Positions 2,919 to 22,466 of a stretch of 37,007 nucleotides of DNA are shown here, piece after piece. Made by a program: the position numbers and the translations under genes. The number at the start of each line of letters is the position of its first letter. Positions within the stretch are counted from its first letter, which is position 1. A model generated the notes under the pieces. The model saw only the letters and a program-made list of their open reading frames with translations, was not told the origin of the DNA and did not search any database. Location: positions 1-37,007 of IMG/VR virus record IMGVR_UViG_3300005264_000759; one strand, written 5' to 3'. This stretch comes from a virus.

Positions 2919-5129
2919 ATGTCAGTAATTCTTGAAATAGGCAAGGGTGTAAAATGTATTAATCTTCCTAAAGCAGCACAACAAAAAATTAAAAATGATT
3001 TGTGTTTTGATAATCCAGAGTATATAGCGGCAATGAAGCAAGGAAGGTTTATTTCTGCGGATATGCCTTCACATATTCACTTATATTATGCAGAAGGTAA
3101 CACTTTCTGGATTCCAAGAGGGTATATATATTATTTAAGAAAATGGTTACGAATTAATAATCATCTTGTTCAAATTAAAGATTATACATTACTTTTAAAA
3201 CCCTTGAATCTTAAATTTAATGGGAAATTACGATCTTACCAAAAAACAGCACAGAAAGATGTTTTATCATACCCGGTTGGAGTTCTCGAAGCGGCAACCG
3301 GGTGTTTAACGGGTGATACGTTAGTTCGAGTGAATAGAGCTAAAAAAGGATTTCAATGCACTCTAAAAAAATTGTATGAAAGACATAATGCGATTGTTAC
3401 AAAAGGAGTGAGTACATTCAATCACAAAATAAATGGACAAATTTCACGAAATTTTTACCATAAACAATGGGATTTATCTATTCCAACTTTTATACGATCT
3501 TATCATGAGGATGAGAATCAAATTCTACTTACAGAGATTCAGAATGTAATTTATTCTGGAATTAAAAAAGTATATGAATTTACATTAGAAGATGGTAAGC
3601 GATTAAAAGGAACTTTGAAACATAAAATTTTAACTACACAAGGATGGAAAAAATTAGGAGAAATTAAAAAAAATGATTTGGTAATGGTAGATTCACACAG
3701 ACCACAAAAAGGATTAAAAACAAATAATGTAAGAACTGATAAAAGTCGAGAAGGATTAATTTATCATCCAAACACACAAGGAAATAAATTAAATCGAAGA
3801 ACTTTACATATACTAATTTACGAAGCTTATTTGAATAAATTAAGTCTGGAAAAATTTATTCAAATATTAAAAACAGATAGTAAGAAAGCACAGAATCTTA
3901 AATTCGTTGATTCTGAAAAATACCATATACACCATAAAGATCAAGATTGGGAAAATAATGATCCAACAAATCTTGAACAATTAACAATTCTACAACATAA
4001 AAAAATACACATTAAACAAACCAAAAAGAATTTTAATCAAGGAAAGCCTCAATACGTAAGAATAATTAAGAAAAAGTATTTGGGAAAAAAAGAAACCTAT
4101 GATATTTGTTGTAAATCCCCACATAATAATTTTACAGCAAATGATATAGTTGTTCATAATTCTGGAAAAACTGTAACAGCAATTTCAATTATTGTGAAAC
4201 GAAAGCAACCAACATTAATAATAGTTCATAGTAAAGAATTACTATATCAATGGAGGGATGCAATAAAACAATTCACAGACGAAGATTGTGGATTAATCGG
4301 AGATGGAAAATTTCAAATCAAACCTATCACCGTGGGAATTATCAACACTGTCAAGAAGAACGTTCCAAAATTAGAAAAACAGTTTGGTCAAATAATAATG
4401 GATGAGTGTCATCGAATAGTTGCTTCATCCTGGTCTGAGACTATTCAAGAATTTCCTGCAAAACACTATTTAGGTTTAACTGCAACCCCATTTCGGAGGG
4501 ATGGATTGGGTCACGCCATTTTTGCCTGTATTGGCCCTAAACGACATAAAGTTGACAAAAGCATGCTATTTAAAACCAAAGCTGTATTAAAACCTGATGT
4601 TTATAAAGTGCTTTCAAATTTCAGATATGTTTTTACAAACGACTATTCAACAATGATTACAAATTTAACACAAGACAATGCAAGAAATAACTTGATTGTA
4701 AGCACTATTGTTGATGATTTAAAGCGTTACAATGAAAACATACTCATAGTATCAGACAGAAAAAATCATCTCTTAAATATGCAAGAAAAGCTTTACAATG
4801 ACTATAAGCTAAATAGTTTAGTTCTAACTGGAAGTGTAAGTAAAAAAGAAAGAACGGAAACGATTGAACAAGTCAAATCAGGAAAATGTAAAATTCTATT
4901 CGCCACTTTAAGTCTAATTGGCGAAGGATTTGACGCTCCAGATTTAACTACTCTGATTATAACAACTCCAGTTAAGTTCAGCGGCAGATTAATTCAAGCT
5001 TGTGGTCGAGTTTTACGACCGAAAAAAGGAAAAATTCCACGTATTTACGATATAAGAGATCCAGAAGTATCTGTACTTCGATACAGTGGTTTTGCCAGAG
5101 ACAGAATTTATATTTCAGAGTGGGGATAG
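2919..5129 (+). CDS. UvsW-like SF2 DNA helicase, interrupted by an intein
   Basis: 736 residues including a 286-residue intein; about 450 after splicing, near the size of T4 UvsW (503). I chose ATG 2919 (MSVILEIGKG) over the in-frame ATG at 2880 because AAAGGA at 2906-2912 is well spaced for 2919 and the upstream gene ends at 2908. Helicase motifs: Walker A split as AATG/SGKT by the intein, motif II DECH (IIMDECHRI), motif III TATPFRRDG, and motif VI QACGRVLRPKKGK. T4 UvsW unwinds branched recombination intermediates and R-loops, driving the switch to recombination-dependent replication. The protein cannot hydrolyse ATP until the intein is removed. Close relatives are RadD/SSL2-type helicases. 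Confidence 0.9.
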   Translation: MSVILEIGKGVKCINLPKAAQQKIKNDLCFDNPEYIAAMKQGRFISADMPSHIHLYYAEGNTFWIPRGYIYYLRKWLRINNHLVQIKDYTLLLKPLNLKFNGKLRSYQKTAQKDVLSYPVGVLEAATGCLTGDTLVRVNRAKKGFQCTLKKLYERHNAIVTKGVSTFNHKINGQISRNFYHKQWDLSIPTFIRSYHEDENQILLTEIQNVIYSGIKKVYEFTLEDGKRLKGTLKHKILTTQGWKKLGEIKKNDLVMVDSHRPQKGLKTNNVRTDKSREGLIYHPNTQGNKLNRRTLHILIYEAYLNKLSLEKFIQILKTDSKKAQNLKFVDSEKYHIHHKDQDWENNDPTNLEQLTILQHKKIHIKQTKKNFNQGKPQYVRIIKKKYLGKKETYDICCKSPHNNFTANDIVVHNSGKTVTAISIIVKRKQPTLIIVHSKELLYQWRDAIKQFTDEDCGLIGDGKFQIKPITVGIINTVKKNVPKLEKQFGQIIMDECHRIVASSWSETIQEFPAKHYLGLTATPFRRDGLGHAIFACIGPKRHKVDKSMLFKTKAVLKPDVYKVLSNFRYVFTNDYSTMITNLTQDNARNNLIVSTIVDDLKRYNENILIVSDRKNHLLNMQEKLYNDYKLNSLVLTGSVSKKERTETIEQVKSGKCKILFATLSLIGEGFDAPDLTTLIITTPVKFSGRLIQACGRVLRPKKGKIPRIYDIRDPEVSVLRYSGFARDRIYISEWG
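3303..4160 (+). mobile_element. HNH-containing intein in the helicase Walker A motif
   Basis: 286 residues, Cys1 (CLTGDTLVRV) to the terminal His-Asn (DIVVHN), with Ser as first residue of the C-extein. Block A and a block B-like GTLKHKILT are present; block F/G reads NNFTANDIVVHN. Between the splicing blocks lies an HNH nuclease signature (HIHHKDQDWENNDPTNLEQL), so this is a homing-competent intein, not a mini-intein. The insertion falls between Gly and Ser of the ATP-binding loop, a site where loss of the element by imprecise deletion would destroy the helicase. Confidence 0.93.
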
Positions 5130-16359: not shown

Positions 16360-19300
16360 ATGGGATTTTTCACCAGCACTGAGATAGCTAAAAAAGCAAA
16401 TAAGAAAGTTGACATAAACAACCTTGAGCCTGATTGTTTAAAATGCACTTTATATAAACAATGCAAAACTCCCAAGATGAAAGTATCTGGGGAAGGTCGA
16501 AAAAAGATTCTTGTAATATCTGATTCACCCAATTATGAGGAAGATGATTACGGAATTCAATTAGTTGGTGACGAAGGAAAGCTTTTGAAAAAAAACTTTA
16601 AAAAAATAAAACTTTCTTTAAATAAAGATTGCTGGAAAATCAATGCAGTTAATTGCAGAACTCCGAATGCAAAAAAGCCATCTCATAAAGAAATTAAATG
16701 TTGTTTTCCTTATGTGCAAAAAGCAATACTTGAATTAAGACCTAAATTAATATTGCTTCTCGGTGACATTGCAATCACTTCTGTATTTGGAGAGGAATTC
16801 TCAAATAGGAAAATAGATAGATGGCGAGCTTATGAAATTCCTGATGAAAAATTCAAATGTTTTGTCATGTCATTGTATCATCCTTCATATTTATTAAAAA
16901 GAGATAAAGATGCGAACTTAAAATCTGTATTCAAACGAGATGTTAAACGCATTTCTCACTGTTTAAAGCGTACATATGAGAAGCAAACAGATTACGAAAG
17001 CTATGTTACTATTCTAAAAGATTTTAACGCAGTTAAAAGCGTGTTAAAACGAATCATAAAAAGAAAATCTAAAATTGCGTTTGATTATGAAACAACAGGA
17101 TTAAAACCGTATCGTGATGGGCATAAAATTTCAACTATAGGAATTGCTGTTTCAGCTAAAAAAGCATTTGCTTTTCCTTTTAACTACAAATCATATTGGA
17201 CTAAAGAAGAATTTTCACAGATATATAAATTATGGAAAACAATTATACTGGATAAAAAAATCAAAAAGATAATCCATAATTCTAAATTTGAAGATGCCTG
17301 GTCAGCGATTCGGGCTGGCGGAAGAATCAAAAATATCCATTGGGATACTATGATGTCTCAACATATTTTAGATAACCGTAGAGCTTCAATCGGATTAAAA
17401 TTTCAAACATTTGTTCGATATGGAGTAAGACCTTATGATAATGTAATTAAACCTTTTTTAAAATCAAAAAATGGAGAATTTAATACGATAGAAAAAGCTC
17501 CATTTAAAGAACTTCTCATTTACAACGGACTTGATTGTATTTTTTGTTGGATGCTTTATAAAGATCAAACCAGTTATTTACCGAGAATGAAAAACATGTT
17601 CAAAGCATATAAGTTTTTCATGCGTGGATTAAGTACAATGGGAACTATTCAGTTCGGTGGCATCAATGTAGATATGAAGTATTATAAAGAAACCAATAAA
17701 AAATTAAAAAAAGATATACGTAATCTGCAACACAACTTAATCACAGGCAGAGAAGGAACAAAATTCAAAGAGAAGTTTGGCAGAGATATCAAGATCACAT
17801 CAAACCAAGATTTAGGTAAATTGTTCTATGAAATTCTTGGGAAAAACCCAATTTATACAGATGCAGGAAATTACAAAACGGACAAACCCACTCTTGAGAA
17901 ACTAAATCTACCTTTTATAGATAAACTTTTAAAAATGAAACGCCTTGAAAAAGCAAAGGGAACTTATCTTGCTCAGTTTGCTAGAGAAGCATACAAAGGA
18001 GTAATGCATCCATTTTTTGATTTACATATTCCTGTAAGTTACCGTGGATCATCGTCAATGCCAAATTTTCAAAATGTACCAAAACGTGATGCTGAAATTG
18101 CGAAGTTGATTAGAAAGGGAATGGTGCCATCAACAAACTCAGCTATAATTGAAGCTGACTTTTCAGGGGCAGAGGTAATAACGAGCGTGTGTTATCATAA
18201 GGATAAAAATTTCTATAATTATTTGGTCGATCCTTCTACTGATATGCATCGGGATAATGCAACTGACTTGTTACTTCTGCCACATGAAACTCTTGAAAGA
18301 ACTGATTACACCAAAGAACAAAAGAAAAAAGTAAAGATGATTCGATTCTTTGCAAAAAATATGTGGACCTTTGCTCAATTCTACGGGGATTGGTTTGGCT
18401 CATGTGGAAAAAGTTTTTGGGAAAATGTAGTTGATGCTGGATTAGAACTGCCAAGTGGAATGACTTGTAAACAATGGTTAGAAGATAAAGGAATTTATGA
18501 ATTAGGTGAAATTGATAGGGATGGTCCTACGCCCGGCTCATTTCTTGAGCATTGTAAAAATGTTGAAGATAAAATGTGGAATGAACGATTTTCTGGATAC
18601 ACTCAATGGAAATCTGACATAGTTGATTTCTATCAAGAATATGGATACATTGAAACATACTTTGGATTTAGATTTCAAGGTTACATGGATAAAAAACAAT
18701 GCACAAATTTCCCAATTCAAGGGTGTTTACAAGGACACTCAAAAATTTTAACATCAAAAGGGTGGAAAAGAATAGACTCGTTGATAAATAAAAAAGTTAA
18801 AGTGTGGACTGGTTTTGAATGGAAACCTGCAATAGGAGTTGATCGGGGAAAAGCTAAATTAGCAACAGTTCACTTAGAATCTGGGTTAAAACTTGATTGT
18901 GATATTAGACATGAATTTAAAAATGAAAACAATGAATGGGTAAAATTTAAAGATTTAAAAGTGGGTCATTATGTTGCTTTGCCTAAAATTATGAATCGAA
19001 TTACTAATTCCAAAATCAAAATGGATTGGTTTTTTATATTGGGATTTGCAATTGGGGATGGTTGGTTTGGATCAAAAATGATAACTGAAAACAACACAAG
19101 ATATGTTTTACAGATATCTGGAGGAAAGACAAAGTATAACGAATTGGATGAAATGTGTTCTTTTCTTCAATCGTATCATGCAAAAGGATTTACAAAAGCA
19201 AGAGTTAGGCAAACAAAGAAGAATATGCGAGTGTTGCATGTAGAAGGACGTAAAATGGCAGAAAAACTAATATCTTTTGGATATGAATGCAATAAAACTG

Positions 19301-20133
19301 CACATACAAAACACATACCAATATCAATATGGGACGGAACAAAACAGCAGCAGCAGCAATTTATGAATGGATTATGGTTATCTGATGGATCAAGAAAAAG
19401 AAAATCATTACATATGTGTAATTTTAATCTTTTACAGGAAGTGCAGGTATTATTATATGGATTGGGCTATGATTCATTTATACGAAAAACAAAAAATGGG
19501 TGGAAATTAACACCTCAAAATGTGTTGCATAAAACATTCACCAGTAGACTTTTTCCAAGAAAAACATTTGACATGCTAAGAAAAGAAAAAACTATTGCTT
19601 ATGATAAAAATGATAATTCAACGATAACGGATAGAAGAAATATTGCCTCAAACAAAGATGTATCCCAAACAGTTGCAGAACGCATTTTAAATAAATTAAA
19701 TCCTAATTGTGAATTGTATAGATACGATAGAGTAACCAAAATTGATTTAGTTGAAAAAGAAGAAAATACATACACTATGACAGTAAATGACAAACTCCAT
19801 CAATTTGTAGCTGATGGAATTATTTGTAAAAACACATCGTTTCATTTGTTGGTGTACACATTAAGTCAAGTAGAAAAATTTATCAAAAAGCACAAATTAA
19901 GAAGTAAGATGGTGGGCCAGATACATGATTCTATAATTTTAGATGCACGTAAAGATGAAATTTCCTTTTTAGTCAATGGAATAAATACAATCGTACAAGG
20001 ACTACAAGATAAATTTGATTGGTTAATGGTGCCGATGGAAATTGAAGTAGAATTATCTAAATTGAAAGAAGATGGCGGTAGTTTTGCTGAAATGAATGAG
20101 TATTCAATTGCAGAAATTAATAAAATGTATTAA
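16360..20133 (+). CDS. Family A DNA polymerase with UDG-like N-terminus and intein
   Basis: 1257 residues; 887 after removal of the 370-residue intein. Residues about 20-205 resemble a family 4/5 uracil-DNA glycosylase: cysteines of CLKCTLYKQC and NCRTPN suited to a 4Fe-4S cluster, LVGDEGKLL, and LYHPSYLL. Then a 3'-5' exonuclease: FDYETTGL, HNSKFEDAW and YNGLDC. Polymerase motifs: A, ADFSGAEVITS; B, RFFAKNMWTFAQFYGD; C, QIHDSII. SPO1-type phages also fuse a UDG fold to family A polymerase. Whether the UDG-like domain is catalytic is unclear; its motif 1 (SDSPN in place of GEAPG) is altered. Main replicative polymerase. Confidence 0.93.
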   Translation: MGFFTSTEIAKKANKKVDINNLEPDCLKCTLYKQCKTPKMKVSGEGRKKILVISDSPNYEEDDYGIQLVGDEGKLLKKNFKKIKLSLNKDCWKINAVNCRTPNAKKPSHKEIKCCFPYVQKAILELRPKLILLLGDIAITSVFGEEFSNRKIDRWRAYEIPDEKFKCFVMSLYHPSYLLKRDKDANLKSVFKRDVKRISHCLKRTYEKQTDYESYVTILKDFNAVKSVLKRIIKRKSKIAFDYETTGLKPYRDGHKISTIGIAVSAKKAFAFPFNYKSYWTKEEFSQIYKLWKTIILDKKIKKIIHNSKFEDAWSAIRAGGRIKNIHWDTMMSQHILDNRRASIGLKFQTFVRYGVRPYDNVIKPFLKSKNGEFNTIEKAPFKELLIYNGLDCIFCWMLYKDQTSYLPRMKNMFKAYKFFMRGLSTMGTIQFGGINVDMKYYKETNKKLKKDIRNLQHNLITGREGTKFKEKFGRDIKITSNQDLGKLFYEILGKNPIYTDAGNYKTDKPTLEKLNLPFIDKLLKMKRLEKAKGTYLAQFAREAYKGVMHPFFDLHIPVSYRGSSSMPNFQNVPKRDAEIAKLIRKGMVPSTNSAIIEADFSGAEVITSVCYHKDKNFYNYLVDPSTDMHRDNATDLLLLPHETLERTDYTKEQKKKVKMIRFFAKNMWTFAQFYGDWFGSCGKSFWENVVDAGLELPSGMTCKQWLEDKGIYELGEIDRDGPTPGSFLEHCKNVEDKMWNERFSGYTQWKSDIVDFYQEYGYIETYFGFRFQGYMDKKQCTNFPIQGCLQGHSKILTSKGWKRIDSLINKKVKVWTGFEWKPAIGVDRGKAKLATVHLESGLKLDCDIRHEFKNENNEWVKFKDLKVGHYVALPKIMNRITNSKIKMDWFFILGFAIGDGWFGSKMITENNTRYVLQISGGKTKYNELDEMCSFLQSYHAKGFTKARVRQTKKNMRVLHVEGRKMAEKLISFGYECNKTAHTKHIPISIWDGTKQQQQQFMNGLWLSDGSRKRKSLHMCNFNLLQEVQVLLYGLGYDSFIRKTKNGWKLTPQNVLHKTFTSRLFPRKTFDMLRKEKTIAYDKNDNSTITDRRNIASNKDVSQTVAERILNKLNPNCELYRYDRVTKIDLVEKEENTYTMTVNDKLHQFVADGIICKNTSFHLLVYTLSQVEKFIKKHKLRSKMVGQIHDSIILDARKDEISFLVNGINTIVQGLQDKFDWLMVPMEIEVELSKLKEDGGSFAEMNEYSIAEINKMY
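18724..19833 (+). mobile_element. LAGLIDADG intein in the polymerase
   Basis: 370 residues, Cys1 (CLQGHSKILTSKGWKRID) to the final Asn, with Thr at +1. Insertion is in NFPIQG/T between motifs B and C. Block B-like GLKLDCDIRHEF is present. The nuclease core has two LAGLIDADG-type motifs, LGFAIGDGWF and MNGLWLSDGSR. The C-terminal block reads HQFVADGIICKN, so the penultimate residue is Lys instead of the common His. Inteins lacking that His are known and can splice, often more slowly. Confidence 0.93.
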
Positions 20134-20241: not shown

Positions 20242-20508
20242 ATGACGGCATTATTCAGTAAAACAATATCAATAACCATTCCAGTTCAATTAGAAGAGGA
20301 TCTTAAAAAAGAAGCCGGTAAGCTCGGAATTTCTCGTTCAAGATTGATTGGTAATCTTCTACTTGATTGGCAAAAAGATAAAAAAGTCACAATAAATGAT
20401 TGTCTCAATCAAAGAGAAGGATGGTGTATAGAATTTGGAATTGTATGTCAAGCACCCCAATCGGAAGCAGAAACTTGCAGTGATTATTTAAAAGGAAATA
20501 ATTCATGA
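20242..20508 (+). CDS. Ribbon-helix-helix regulator with Cys-containing tail
   Basis: 88 residues. AGGGGG at 20226-20231 and the promoter position support ATG 20242 over an upstream in-frame start. The strand KTISITIPVQ, helix LEEDLKKEAGKLGI and helix SRSRLIGNLLLDWQ match CopG/Arc-like RHH. A tail with four cysteines (DCLNQREGWC, then a later C and TCSDY) follows and may bind metal. First gene behind the strongest promoter, overlapping the clamp loader by ATGA; likely autoregulation is inferred. Confidence 0.7.
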   Translation: MTALFSKTISITIPVQLEEDLKKEAGKLGISRSRLIGNLLLDWQKDKKVTINDCLNQREGWCIEFGIVCQAPQSEAETCSDYLKGNNS

Positions 20509-22466
20509 GTTTGCAAGTACAGTATCGCCCAAAATCATTAAAAACGTTTATTGGAAATGAGGCTGTAGTTGAAAGTTTATCTGCCGTTCTACAAAGAAAA
20601 AATCCTCCATCAGCATTTTTATTTACTGGAATGGGCGGTACTGGGAAGACCACTATAGGACGTATAGTTGCTCGAATGTTAAAATGTAAAAAAACAAGTT
20701 TTAAAGAGTTAAATTCCGCCGATGATAGAGGTATAGATGGAATACGAAAAATTATTAATGAAATGAAATATGTCCCATTAGATGGCGGTAAAAAAGTAAT
20801 GCTCCTTGATGAGGCACACTGTTTTGATCGCAGAACATTAGTATCCACACCAAATGGAAGAAAAAGAATTGATTCTTTAAGTATTGGAGATACTGTTTTT
20901 AATTTAAACGGCACTGACATTATTGAAAAAGTATTTATCAATAAAGTTGCATTAGATAATATTACAAGAATAAATAAGTCTGATGGATCACACACCTTTT
21001 GCTCAAAAGATCATGAGTACTATATTGATGGAGAATGGACAGAAGCAAAAGACTTGACAAACAGATTACTTGTAAAGTATAGTCAACATATGACTAACAT
21101 AAGTTTACAAGGAAATACTAAAAATGAAATGCGAATGGTGCAACAAAACAATAACAAAAAACAGATTTTGCTCCAGAAGTTGTTCTGGAAAATATGCCAG
21201 AAGTTGTGTGAAGAATACAGCTATTTCAGAAGAGAGAAAAGAGAAAATCAGAAAATCTGTTTTAGCACACAGACAAACAGAACAAGGCAAAAAGATGGCA
21301 AAAAATTCTTCAAAAAGGATGAAAAAAAACAATCCAATGAATATGCCAGGTGTGAAAGAGAAAATGATTCAGACACAACGAATAAACGGAACACTTCATG
21401 CTTGGCCAGGAAAACGTGGTGGCAACGGACAATTAACAGAGTCACAGAGATTATTGATGGTTGCATTAGGATGGGAATCGGAAGTTGTTATAAAAACAGC
21501 AGATCATTTGCCTATGCGACAACGACAGGAATGGTGTCGAAAGAAGAAAGTTCCTACCAATTACAAAGTAGATGTAGGGAACAAGAAGTTAAAACTTGCT
21601 ATAGAAATAGACGGGAAGAGTCACAATTCAAAAGTACGAAAAGCTCAGGACAAAAAGAAAGATTCTCTTTTAAAATGGAAAGGGTGGAAAGTGTTGAGAT
21701 TTACAAACAAGGAAGTAATGACAAATCTTTCACAAGTGTTATTGGAGATAAAGAAAGAAATCAAGGCTATGTAGAATTTTACGATCTTCAAATAAAAGAA
21801 AATCACTCTTATATAGCAAATAATAATATGGTTCACAATTGTTTAACCAAACCATCACAAGAAGCGTTATTAAAAGCTCTTGAAGAACCTCCAAAACATA
21901 TCCATTTCATTGTCTGTACAACAAATCCCGAAATGTTAAAACAAACCTTTAAAAGACGATGTCATGCATATGAACTTGAACCTTTAAAAAATTCAGATTT
22001 ACAAAAATTATTAAAAAGAGTTTTACGAAAAGAAGGACGTATAAATGCCGTTTCTTCAGAGGTACGAGACAAAATAAGTGAACTTGCTGATGGTTCAGCA
22101 GGGCAGGCATTAAAATTACTCGACCAAGTAATTGATATGGATAATACTGAAAGAGCAATCAGCACACTTCAATCAGCAGGAACTTCTGAATCCGAAGTAA
22201 TAGATATCTGCCGTACGTTGTGTCATTATAATATGCCTGAAAAAACAAAATGGGTAAAGATTAAAAAAATACTCAAGACATATAACGGCGATGGAGAATC
22301 AGCACGCAGACCTATAGCTGGGTATCTTTCAGCAATATTATTAAATAACGGTGGAGATGACATTGCTTATATGTTGGAAAATTTTACTGAAAAAAACTTC
22401 TTTGATTCTGGCAAAGCTGGATTGGTGTTAGCCTGTTATAAATCGGTATTTATTGGAGAAAATTAA
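20505..22466 (+). CDS. Clamp loader ATPase (DnaX/gp44-like), interrupted by an intein
   Basis: 653 residues; 313 after removal of the intein, close to T4 gp44 (319). It begins LQVQYRPKSLKTFIGNEAVV, typical of clamp loaders; Walker A is GMGGTGKTTIGR; Walker B LLDEAH is cut by the intein just after its His. The sensor/SRC region reads SQEALLKALEEPPKHIHFIVCTTNPEMLKQTFKRRC. It opens the sliding clamp (15156) with ATP and places it on primed DNA. Partner subunits (gp62 or delta type) were not recognised. The same DNA carries a nuclease gene in another frame at 21124-21774. Confidence 0.93.
   Translation: MSLQVQYRPKSLKTFIGNEAVVESLSAVLQRKNPPSAFLFTGMGGTGKTTIGRIVARMLKCKKTSFKELNSADDRGIDGIRKIINEMKYVPLDGGKKVMLLDEAHCFDRRTLVSTPNGRKRIDSLSIGDTVFNLNGTDIIEKVFINKVALDNITRINKSDGSHTFCSKDHEYYIDGEWTEAKDLTNRLLVKYSQHMTNISLQGNTKNEMRMVQQNNNKKQILLQKLFWKICQKLCEEYSYFRREKRENQKICFSTQTNRTRQKDGKKFFKKDEKKQSNEYARCERENDSDTTNKRNTSCLARKTWWQRTINRVTEIIDGCIRMGIGSCYKNSRSFAYATTTGMVSKEESSYQLQSRCREQEVKTCYRNRREESQFKSTKSSGQKERFSFKMERVESVEIYKQGSNDKSFTSVIGDKERNQGYVEFYDLQIKENHSYIANNNMVHNCLTKPSQEALLKALEEPPKHIHFIVCTTNPEMLKQTFKRRCHAYELEPLKNSDLQKLLKRVLRKEGRINAVSSEVRDKISELADGSAGQALKLLDQVIDMDNTERAISTLQSAGTSESEVIDICRTLCHYNMPEKTKWVKIKKILKTYNGDGESARRPIAGYLSAILLNNGGDDIAYMLENFTEKNFFDSGKAGLVLACYKSVFIGEN
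20820..21839 (+). mobile_element. Intein in clamp loader Walker B, hosting an out-of-frame nuclease gene
   Basis: 340 residues in the host frame, Cys1 (CFDRRTLVSTPNGRKRID) to final His-Asn (NNMVHN), Cys at +1 (CLTKPSQEALL). Block B-like SHTFCSKDHEYY and block F-like EFYDLQIKENHSYIANN are present, so splicing looks intact. In this frame the middle (about 200 residues) is polar, Arg/Lys/Ser/Gln-rich and resembles no nuclease. The nuclease is instead encoded in the +1 frame across the same bases, and no stop interrupts the intein frame for its 217 codons. Confidence 0.92.
21124..21774 (+). CDS. Homing endonuclease nested out of frame in the intein
   Basis: 216 residues wholly inside the intein, frame +1 relative to the clamp loader. 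AAGGAA (21109-21114) lies 9 bases before its ATG. The N-terminus has a zinc-finger-like set (CEWC, FCSRSCSGKYA), then basic helices with a KKNNPMNMPGVKEKM segment like NUMOD3 DNA-binding repeats. The C-terminal domain (about 110-205) has VDVGNKKLKLAIEIDGKSHN, then DSLLKWKGWKVLRFTNKEV, the layout of Vsr-like/EDxHD or DUF559-type nucleases. The likely role is spreading the intein to intein-free clamp loader genes. In contrast to usual inteins, the nuclease would be made as a free protein. Confidence 0.82.
   Translation: MKCEWCNKTITKNRFCSRSCSGKYARSCVKNTAISEERKEKIRKSVLAHRQTEQGKKMAKNSSKRMKKNNPMNMPGVKEKMIQTQRINGTLHAWPGKRGGNGQLTESQRLLMVALGWESEVVIKTADHLPMRQRQEWCRKKKVPTNYKVDVGNKKLKLAIEIDGKSHNSKVRKAQDKKKDSLLKWKGWKVLRFTNKEVMTNLSQVLLEIKKEIKAM

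Follow-up and report, generated by a model that had tools for sequence, protein, structure and literature searches.

A probable mobile intein with an endonuclease gene overprinted in the +1 frame of a viral clamp-loader gene, and its relatives in phages

Split inteins of the Dassa 2009 type, such as gp41-1, reportedly lie in fractured phage genes together with free-standing EDxHD nucleases. The nearest published case to the locus considered here is the ShiLan element, in which an out-of-frame HNH nuclease is hidden in a methylase, without a splicing domain or a ribosome-binding site (PMC11855218). For overlapping reading frames in actinobacteriophages, that paper cites both Gorbalenya 1998 and a preprint by Gosselin et al. 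(bioRxiv 10.1101/2025.01.02.630785). The preprint concerns actinobacteriophage inteins of "non-canonical architecture", and it may describe out-of-frame endonucleases in inteins. Some of the overprinted-intein architecture presented below may already have been described, and priority is uncertain.

The stretch of DNA analyzed here (the window) is the virus record IMGVR_UViG_3300005264_000759 of IMG/VR, 37,007 nt in length. On its + strand, positions 20505-22466 form a stop-free, 653-aa open reading frame (ORF) for an intein-bearing, DnaX/delta-prime-like AAA+ clamp loader (Pfam PF13177, 1.5e-16; PHROG 5846 clamp loader, 2.6e-62). The exteins occupy 20505-20819 and 21840-22466 (+). Between them, at 20820-21839 (+), lies the intein of 340 codons (Cys1 to Asn340), 3' of the Walker B motif LLDEAH and 5' of CLTKPSQEALL. 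These limits are exact because L136, a clamp loader from a different virus contig that aligns over its full length at 76% protein identity, lacks precisely those 340 codons: its DEAHCLTKP is uninterrupted, and it reads LLDEAHCLTKPAQEALL where the window has LLDEAH, the 340 codons, and CLTKPSQEALL. The nucleophile Cys1 (codon 20820-20822), the C-terminal His-Asn (ending at 21839), and Cys+1 (21840) are all present. No close DNA relatives of the window region were found in the phage collection. The coordinates given by the initial sequence-only reading for the intein and the nuclease proved right to the base.

In the host frame, the insert carries the two halves of a Hint splicing domain. IntN, with blocks A and B (CFDRRTLVST ... 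CSKDHEYY), extends from 20820 to 21083 (+) and is conserved in an alignment of 31 inteins; IntC, with block F (FYDLQIKENHSYIANN) and block G (MVHN), extends from 21669 to 21839 (+; alignment A3). The linker between them (21084-21668, +) is open and predicted to be disordered, and its conservation does not exceed that expected from stop-free recoding. The AF2 model of the intein is confident at approximately residues 1-88 (pLDDT ~84-96) and 284-340 (pLDDT ~95), with a middle that is mostly below 50, although this low confidence may partly reflect the non-conserved alignment there. A Foldseek comparison of the model with the PDB gives the gp41-1 intein 6qaz as the best match (E 6.1e-6, probability 1.00). 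The Pfam intein model PF14890 reaches 2.8e-6, but its 27.7 bits are below the gathering cut-off of 35.8. Taken together, sequence and predicted fold meet the tests for a Hint intein; splicing itself is inferred. The earlier claim that the host frame contains an intein with intact splicing ends is upheld by Cys1, His-Asn, Cys+1, and the empty site of L136, as is the claim that this frame lacks a nuclease, since it contains only the non-conserved linker.

The window also contains a second intein of ~370 residues at 18724-19833, within a family A DNA polymerase gene (16360-20133). It is inserted between NFPIQG and TSFHLL, has an in-frame LAGLIDADG-like segment, and ends in Lys-Asn rather than His-Asn. 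The polymerase ORF itself has an N-terminal fusion to a uracil-DNA glycosylase-superfamily domain (PF03167, 4.6e-17).

The endonuclease gene (21124-21774, +; 216 residues) is in the +1 frame relative to the clamp loader. The protein begins with a Cys4 zinc-finger-like segment (C3, C6, C16, C20), which is followed by helices with RMKKNNPM and GGNG and then by a DUF559 catalytic domain (PF04480; 2.9e-15, 56.5 bits, above the Pfam gathering score of 20.6). The helices had been called NUMOD3-like, a label that finds no support, as no NUMOD3 Pfam model matches the nuclease at E<=1. Residues D150, E161, D163, H167, D176, and K179 of the catalytic domain are invariant or nearly so in alignments A1 and A2; E161, D163, H167, D176, and K179 are invariant in A1. 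The AF2 model of the nuclease (pLDDT 92.5) was built from an alignment of the window and IMG/VR rows only. Its first-ranked fold match in the PDB is 3r3p, the catalytic domain of the EDxHD enzyme I-Bth0305I (E 2.3e-3, probability 1.00, TMt 0.60); a sequence comparison with I-Bth0305I gives E 0.0023, and the fold also matches the DUF559 protein 3hrl. Thus, the proposed EDxHD-like catalytic domain is borne out by fold, with DUF559 as its Pfam family.

That the host frame stays open across this gene by chance is ruled out by recoding simulations. For the 152-codon nuclease core, synonymous recoding with genome codon usage predicts 14.5 host-frame stops, and permuting the core's own synonymous codons predicts 8.5; the window has none, and no simulated sequence reached zero. 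The suspicion that a stop-free intein frame would be improbable without selection is thus confirmed far beyond chance.

The nuclease family was sought in virus contigs, genome contigs, and phage records, using the nuclease alone and then alignment A1 (36 members). It comprises 101 non-identical members, 95 of which have the nuclease in the same +1 offset and no host-frame stop across the nuclease core. In these 95 the host frame is offset from the nuclease frame by 2 bases in the downstream direction, and the remaining frame contains 3-27 stops. Whenever an intein end motif could be recognized (YDLQIKENHSYIANNNMVHNC, for example), it was in the host frame. Their mean expectation is 10.3 host-frame stops with external codon usage or 6.4 by permutation, against zero observed in 95/95. 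Since the 95 were picked for having no stops, what is informative is the proportion 95/101 together with the explained exceptions. The six members without a host-frame overlap provide a natural control, with 8-22 stops in that frame. Three of these, located in a Mu F-like head protein, are inteins of the ordinary in-frame kind (L043, L046, and L047; 17-20 stops), two are split inteins (L036 and L039; 8 and 14 stops), and one is a free-standing nuclease beside a helicase gene (L107; 22 stops). In the two split-intein helicases (L036 3193-5160 and L039 3445-5664), the family nuclease lies between the two halves and overlaps them; the insertion site of L039 is ...HR/C, not DE/C (the slash marks the junction). 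One overprinted member, L006, has a single host-frame stop (4111-4113) upstream of the nuclease core and is otherwise intact; this stop represents either an error or a transition towards a split gene.

The existence of canonical in-frame relatives might suggest that the arrangement is an artefact, created by indels that compensate each other within a normal, in-frame intein endonuclease, or by a chance open frame. This is hardly credible. The same offset is common to 95 non-identical loci, including cultured-phage genomes from several groups, so no compensating indels need be invoked, and the stop-free frame is absent from the non-overlapping relatives. An assembly artefact is already refuted by these independent genomes. 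As read from them, the two-frame design is an established and general build of these selfish elements and not an assembly or sequencing accident, because the offset recurs in this way.

In a midpoint-rooted tree of the family (101 rows, 148 columns), the in-frame members group together in a single long-branched clade (100/100), all other members are on the opposite side, and three changes of label suffice. The deep forks are poorly resolved and the root is by midpoint only; L138 was left out, its arrangement being read directly from the frames. The tree is consistent with a single putative origin of overprinting, followed by later splitting and freeing. A split stage is an attractive route from the in-frame to the overprinted state, because a direct step would expose ~10 stops, but this is inference only.

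The insertion point is nearly always after DE of Walker B and before Cys-His (DE/C...HN/CH). Host genes include clamp loaders, SF2/SNF2 helicases (ResIII/DEAD, SNF2-like, and XPD-like), and one methylase-fused protein. The window insertion is 2 codons further on (DEAH/C), and similar exceptions are seen in L109 (DESH/C), L092 (DESHR/C), and L121 (DEGHR/C). One contig, IMGVR_UViG_3300033144_006696, has two overprinted inteins, L053 and L071, in a clamp loader and a helicase, which suggests spread between unrelated genes that share the Walker B sequence. Two helicase genes (L122 2414-6307 and L126 161-4189) have an overprinted intein as well as an in-frame LAGLIDADG domain, the latter probably a second intein.

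The nuclease matches 40 GenBank phage records, among them Vibrio phages including CP-T1, Pseudomonas phage MR14, and Corynebacterium phage phi673. In all seven that were checked (MR14, CP-T1, 159E43-1b, 1.088.O, 1.194.O, K391, and phi673), the overprinted arrangement could be read directly; their annotation has only the long host CDS, as a helicase or under an uninformative name, and lacks the nested nuclease. In Vibrio phages whose helicases (exteins) are 85-94% identical, a single site exists as three kinds of allele: empty (1.024.O; the Vibrio empty allele is L140), occupied by a 150-residue mini-intein without a nuclease (268E42.1 and K459), or occupied by a 356-residue overprinted intein (1.088.O, K391, and 1.194.O). 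The mini-intein looks like a different intein lineage. Such a pattern is the one expected of a putative homing element, for which there are no cleavage data.

Phage introns often carry nucleases of this kind, and it could be asked whether the insert is removed as RNA, that is, as an intron. However, the window region has no Rfam match at E<=1 and eight family loci have none at gathering scores, the Hint halves and the HN/Cys+1 ends are intact, and an intron need not keep the host frame open. Removal as RNA is therefore scarcely tenable, and an intein remains the preferred reading.

Three nearly identical Vibrio alleles (1.088.O, 1.194.O, and K391) allow selection to be gauged in each frame. 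Within the nuclease-plus-linker part, 29/32 and 34/39 differences leave the nuclease protein unchanged (omega 0.03 and 0.04), and the closest pair, with 10 differences, gives a nuclease omega of 0.18. The host frame of the same part has an omega of 1.3-2.2, against 0.05-0.24 in IntN. In these alleles, purifying selection acts strongly on the nuclease frame (omega about 0.03-0.2), and the host-frame linker is neutral. In the comparison of rates that had been proposed for the two frames (nuclease 0.03-0.18, host linker 1.3-2.2), the +1 frame, far from being degraded in relatives, is the one under purifying selection. The earlier assertion that one DNA segment carries both an intein and, in its +1 frame, a complete endonuclease gene is supported.

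Across the family, the null for host-frame identity came from synonymous recoding in which stops were strictly excluded. In the stretch of nuclease residues 62-181, identity is approximately as expected (z -1.8 to 4.7, with an excess of at most ~0.02); over residues 182-216, it is far above this null (z 33.7, 8.7, 17.2, and 14.1). Because sequence pairs are not independent, the z values are descriptive. These figures bear on the idea that the linker is a functional domain, for example a second DNA-binding module, so that the overlap is dual-coding throughout. The linker is basic and always kept open, and the last ~35 nuclease codons are indeed conserved in both frames. However, for residues 62-181 a conserved host-frame domain is rejected by an identity no higher than stop-free recoding allows; in addition, the host omega is 1.3-2.2, AF2 finds no confident fold there, and the mini-inteins at the same Vibrio site do without such a linker. 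A functional linker is thus very improbable. Instead, outside the last ~35 nuclease codons, selection on the host-frame linker does no more than keep it free of stops.

This dual-coding segment (21669-21774, +) encodes the start of IntC in the host frame (beginning FKMERVESVEIYK) and the end of the nuclease in the +1 frame (beginning LKWKGWKVLRFTN). Within it, GGGTGGAAAGTGTTGAGATTTACAAAC is read as GWKVLRFTN in the nuclease frame and as VESVEIYK in the host frame. Both frames are conserved here because the same nucleotides encode the IntC strand RVESVEIY and the nuclease motif GWKVLRFTN. By inference, this stretch probably locks the frame offset, since a nuclease in another frame would lose the splicing strand. 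The nuclease stop codon falls at discrete distances before the intein end, mostly 65, 50, 44, 23, and 8 nt (L114, L112, L025, and L013). The nuclease tail of some members reaches into intein blocks F and G, and the open frame of L013 extends beyond the splice junction.

The nuclease ORF is preceded by AAGGAAATACTAAAAATG, and its ATG comes after AAGGAAATACTAAAA. As had been pointed out, the gene has its own AAGGAA and ATG; the Shine-Dalgarno-like site and spacer (21108-21123, +) form a moderate duplex (dG -5.4). A fair set for the family consists of the 35 loci in which only one start is possible upstream of the first zinc-finger Cys, as the figure for all loci (84%) is inflated by choosing among several starts. 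In this set, 80% have a duplex of <=-4 kcal/mol, versus 35% of the control positions taken from these genes; at -7 the values are 54% versus 11%. Production of the nuclease by programmed +1 ribosomal frameshifting, which would yield an N-extein-IntN-nuclease fusion, is compatible with an offset that is always +1 and with the ~20% of unambiguous starts that lack a strong Shine-Dalgarno site. However, there is little room for a shift, as the median distance from the nuclease-frame stop to the first zinc-finger Cys downstream is 16 codons, and in several loci an ATG immediately follows that stop; Shine-Dalgarno enrichment and the use of ATG (the best start in 85/94 loci) also favor initiation. 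Although frameshifting is unlikely, it remains possible. Internal initiation is the best reading because of the Shine-Dalgarno enrichment and the stop shortly before the first Cys.

With considerable confidence, then, the locus can be regarded as a mobile intein of a distinct and widespread architecture, in which cis-splicing is combined with a separately initiated nuclease, the gene of this homing endonuclease being overprinted on the intein in its +1 frame. Ribosomes starting at the clamp-loader ATG would read through the stop-free, unstructured linker of ~195 residues; IntN and IntC would then fold together and splice in cis, giving an intact clamp loader. Initiation by other ribosomes at the internal Shine-Dalgarno/ATG (21108-21126) would yield a free zinc-finger/DUF559 nuclease, which would probably cut intein-free copies of the conserved Walker B sequence, resulting in homing. 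Exact insertion, two intact frames, family conservation, selection in each frame, and site polymorphism can be read from sequence; in the absence of expression, splicing, or cleavage data, splicing, internal initiation and translation of the nuclease, and cleavage of empty sites are inferred, and the nuclease target is deduced from the insertion position only.

More broadly, and with somewhat less assurance, such "entangled" inteins would represent a third stable architecture beside the fused and the split. In these elements the last ~35 codons of an overprinting nuclease gene encode both GWxVLRFxN and the first IntC strand, locking the frames; they probably had one origin, and homing would since have carried them from one Walker B motif to another, in the clamp loaders and helicases of phages that infect many hosts. 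This would be a natural way to keep a selfish nuclease in an essential gene without an intein fusion or a broken host gene, and its relation to split inteins such as gp41-1 may be that of an intermediate or a sister state. The family also provides a large set of overlapping genes in which stop-avoidance and true dual coding can be measurably separated, reveals nested genes missing from the annotation of cultured phages (CP-T1, MR14, phi673, and the Vibrio lentus phages), and is a source of candidate nucleases directed against Walker B sites in replication genes.

The sequence-only reading held that this arrangement was not known among described inteins. This has to be qualified, since ShiLan, an out-of-frame nuclease insertion that lacks splicing domains, is in the literature (PMC11855218). 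Like the window family, ShiLan is a phage insertion that is stop-free in the host frame, has a real nuclease in another frame, and bears signs of mobility. However, its nuclease is HNH rather than DUF559/EDxHD-like, it has no Hint domain, and it lacks a ribosome-binding site, whereas the window family is enriched for Shine-Dalgarno sites and occurs in many genes and hosts. Split inteins of the gp41-1 type share with the window the nuclease superfamily, a location in phage replication genes, and, through gp41-1 itself, the best PDB fold match; within the nuclease family, L036 and L039 have the split layout. Only in these two is the host gene divided into two ORFs with IntN and IntC, whereas in the window it is one continuous 653-aa ORF that the nuclease overlaps, instead of lying between gene pieces. 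As in canonical LAGLIDADG or HNH inteins, the Hint halves are parted at the usual point by homing-nuclease sequence, but there the nuclease is in frame and fused, and here it is out of frame and, by inference, free. The element would work like a homing intein, but without the in-frame nuclease of the canonical type and without the two ORFs of the split type.
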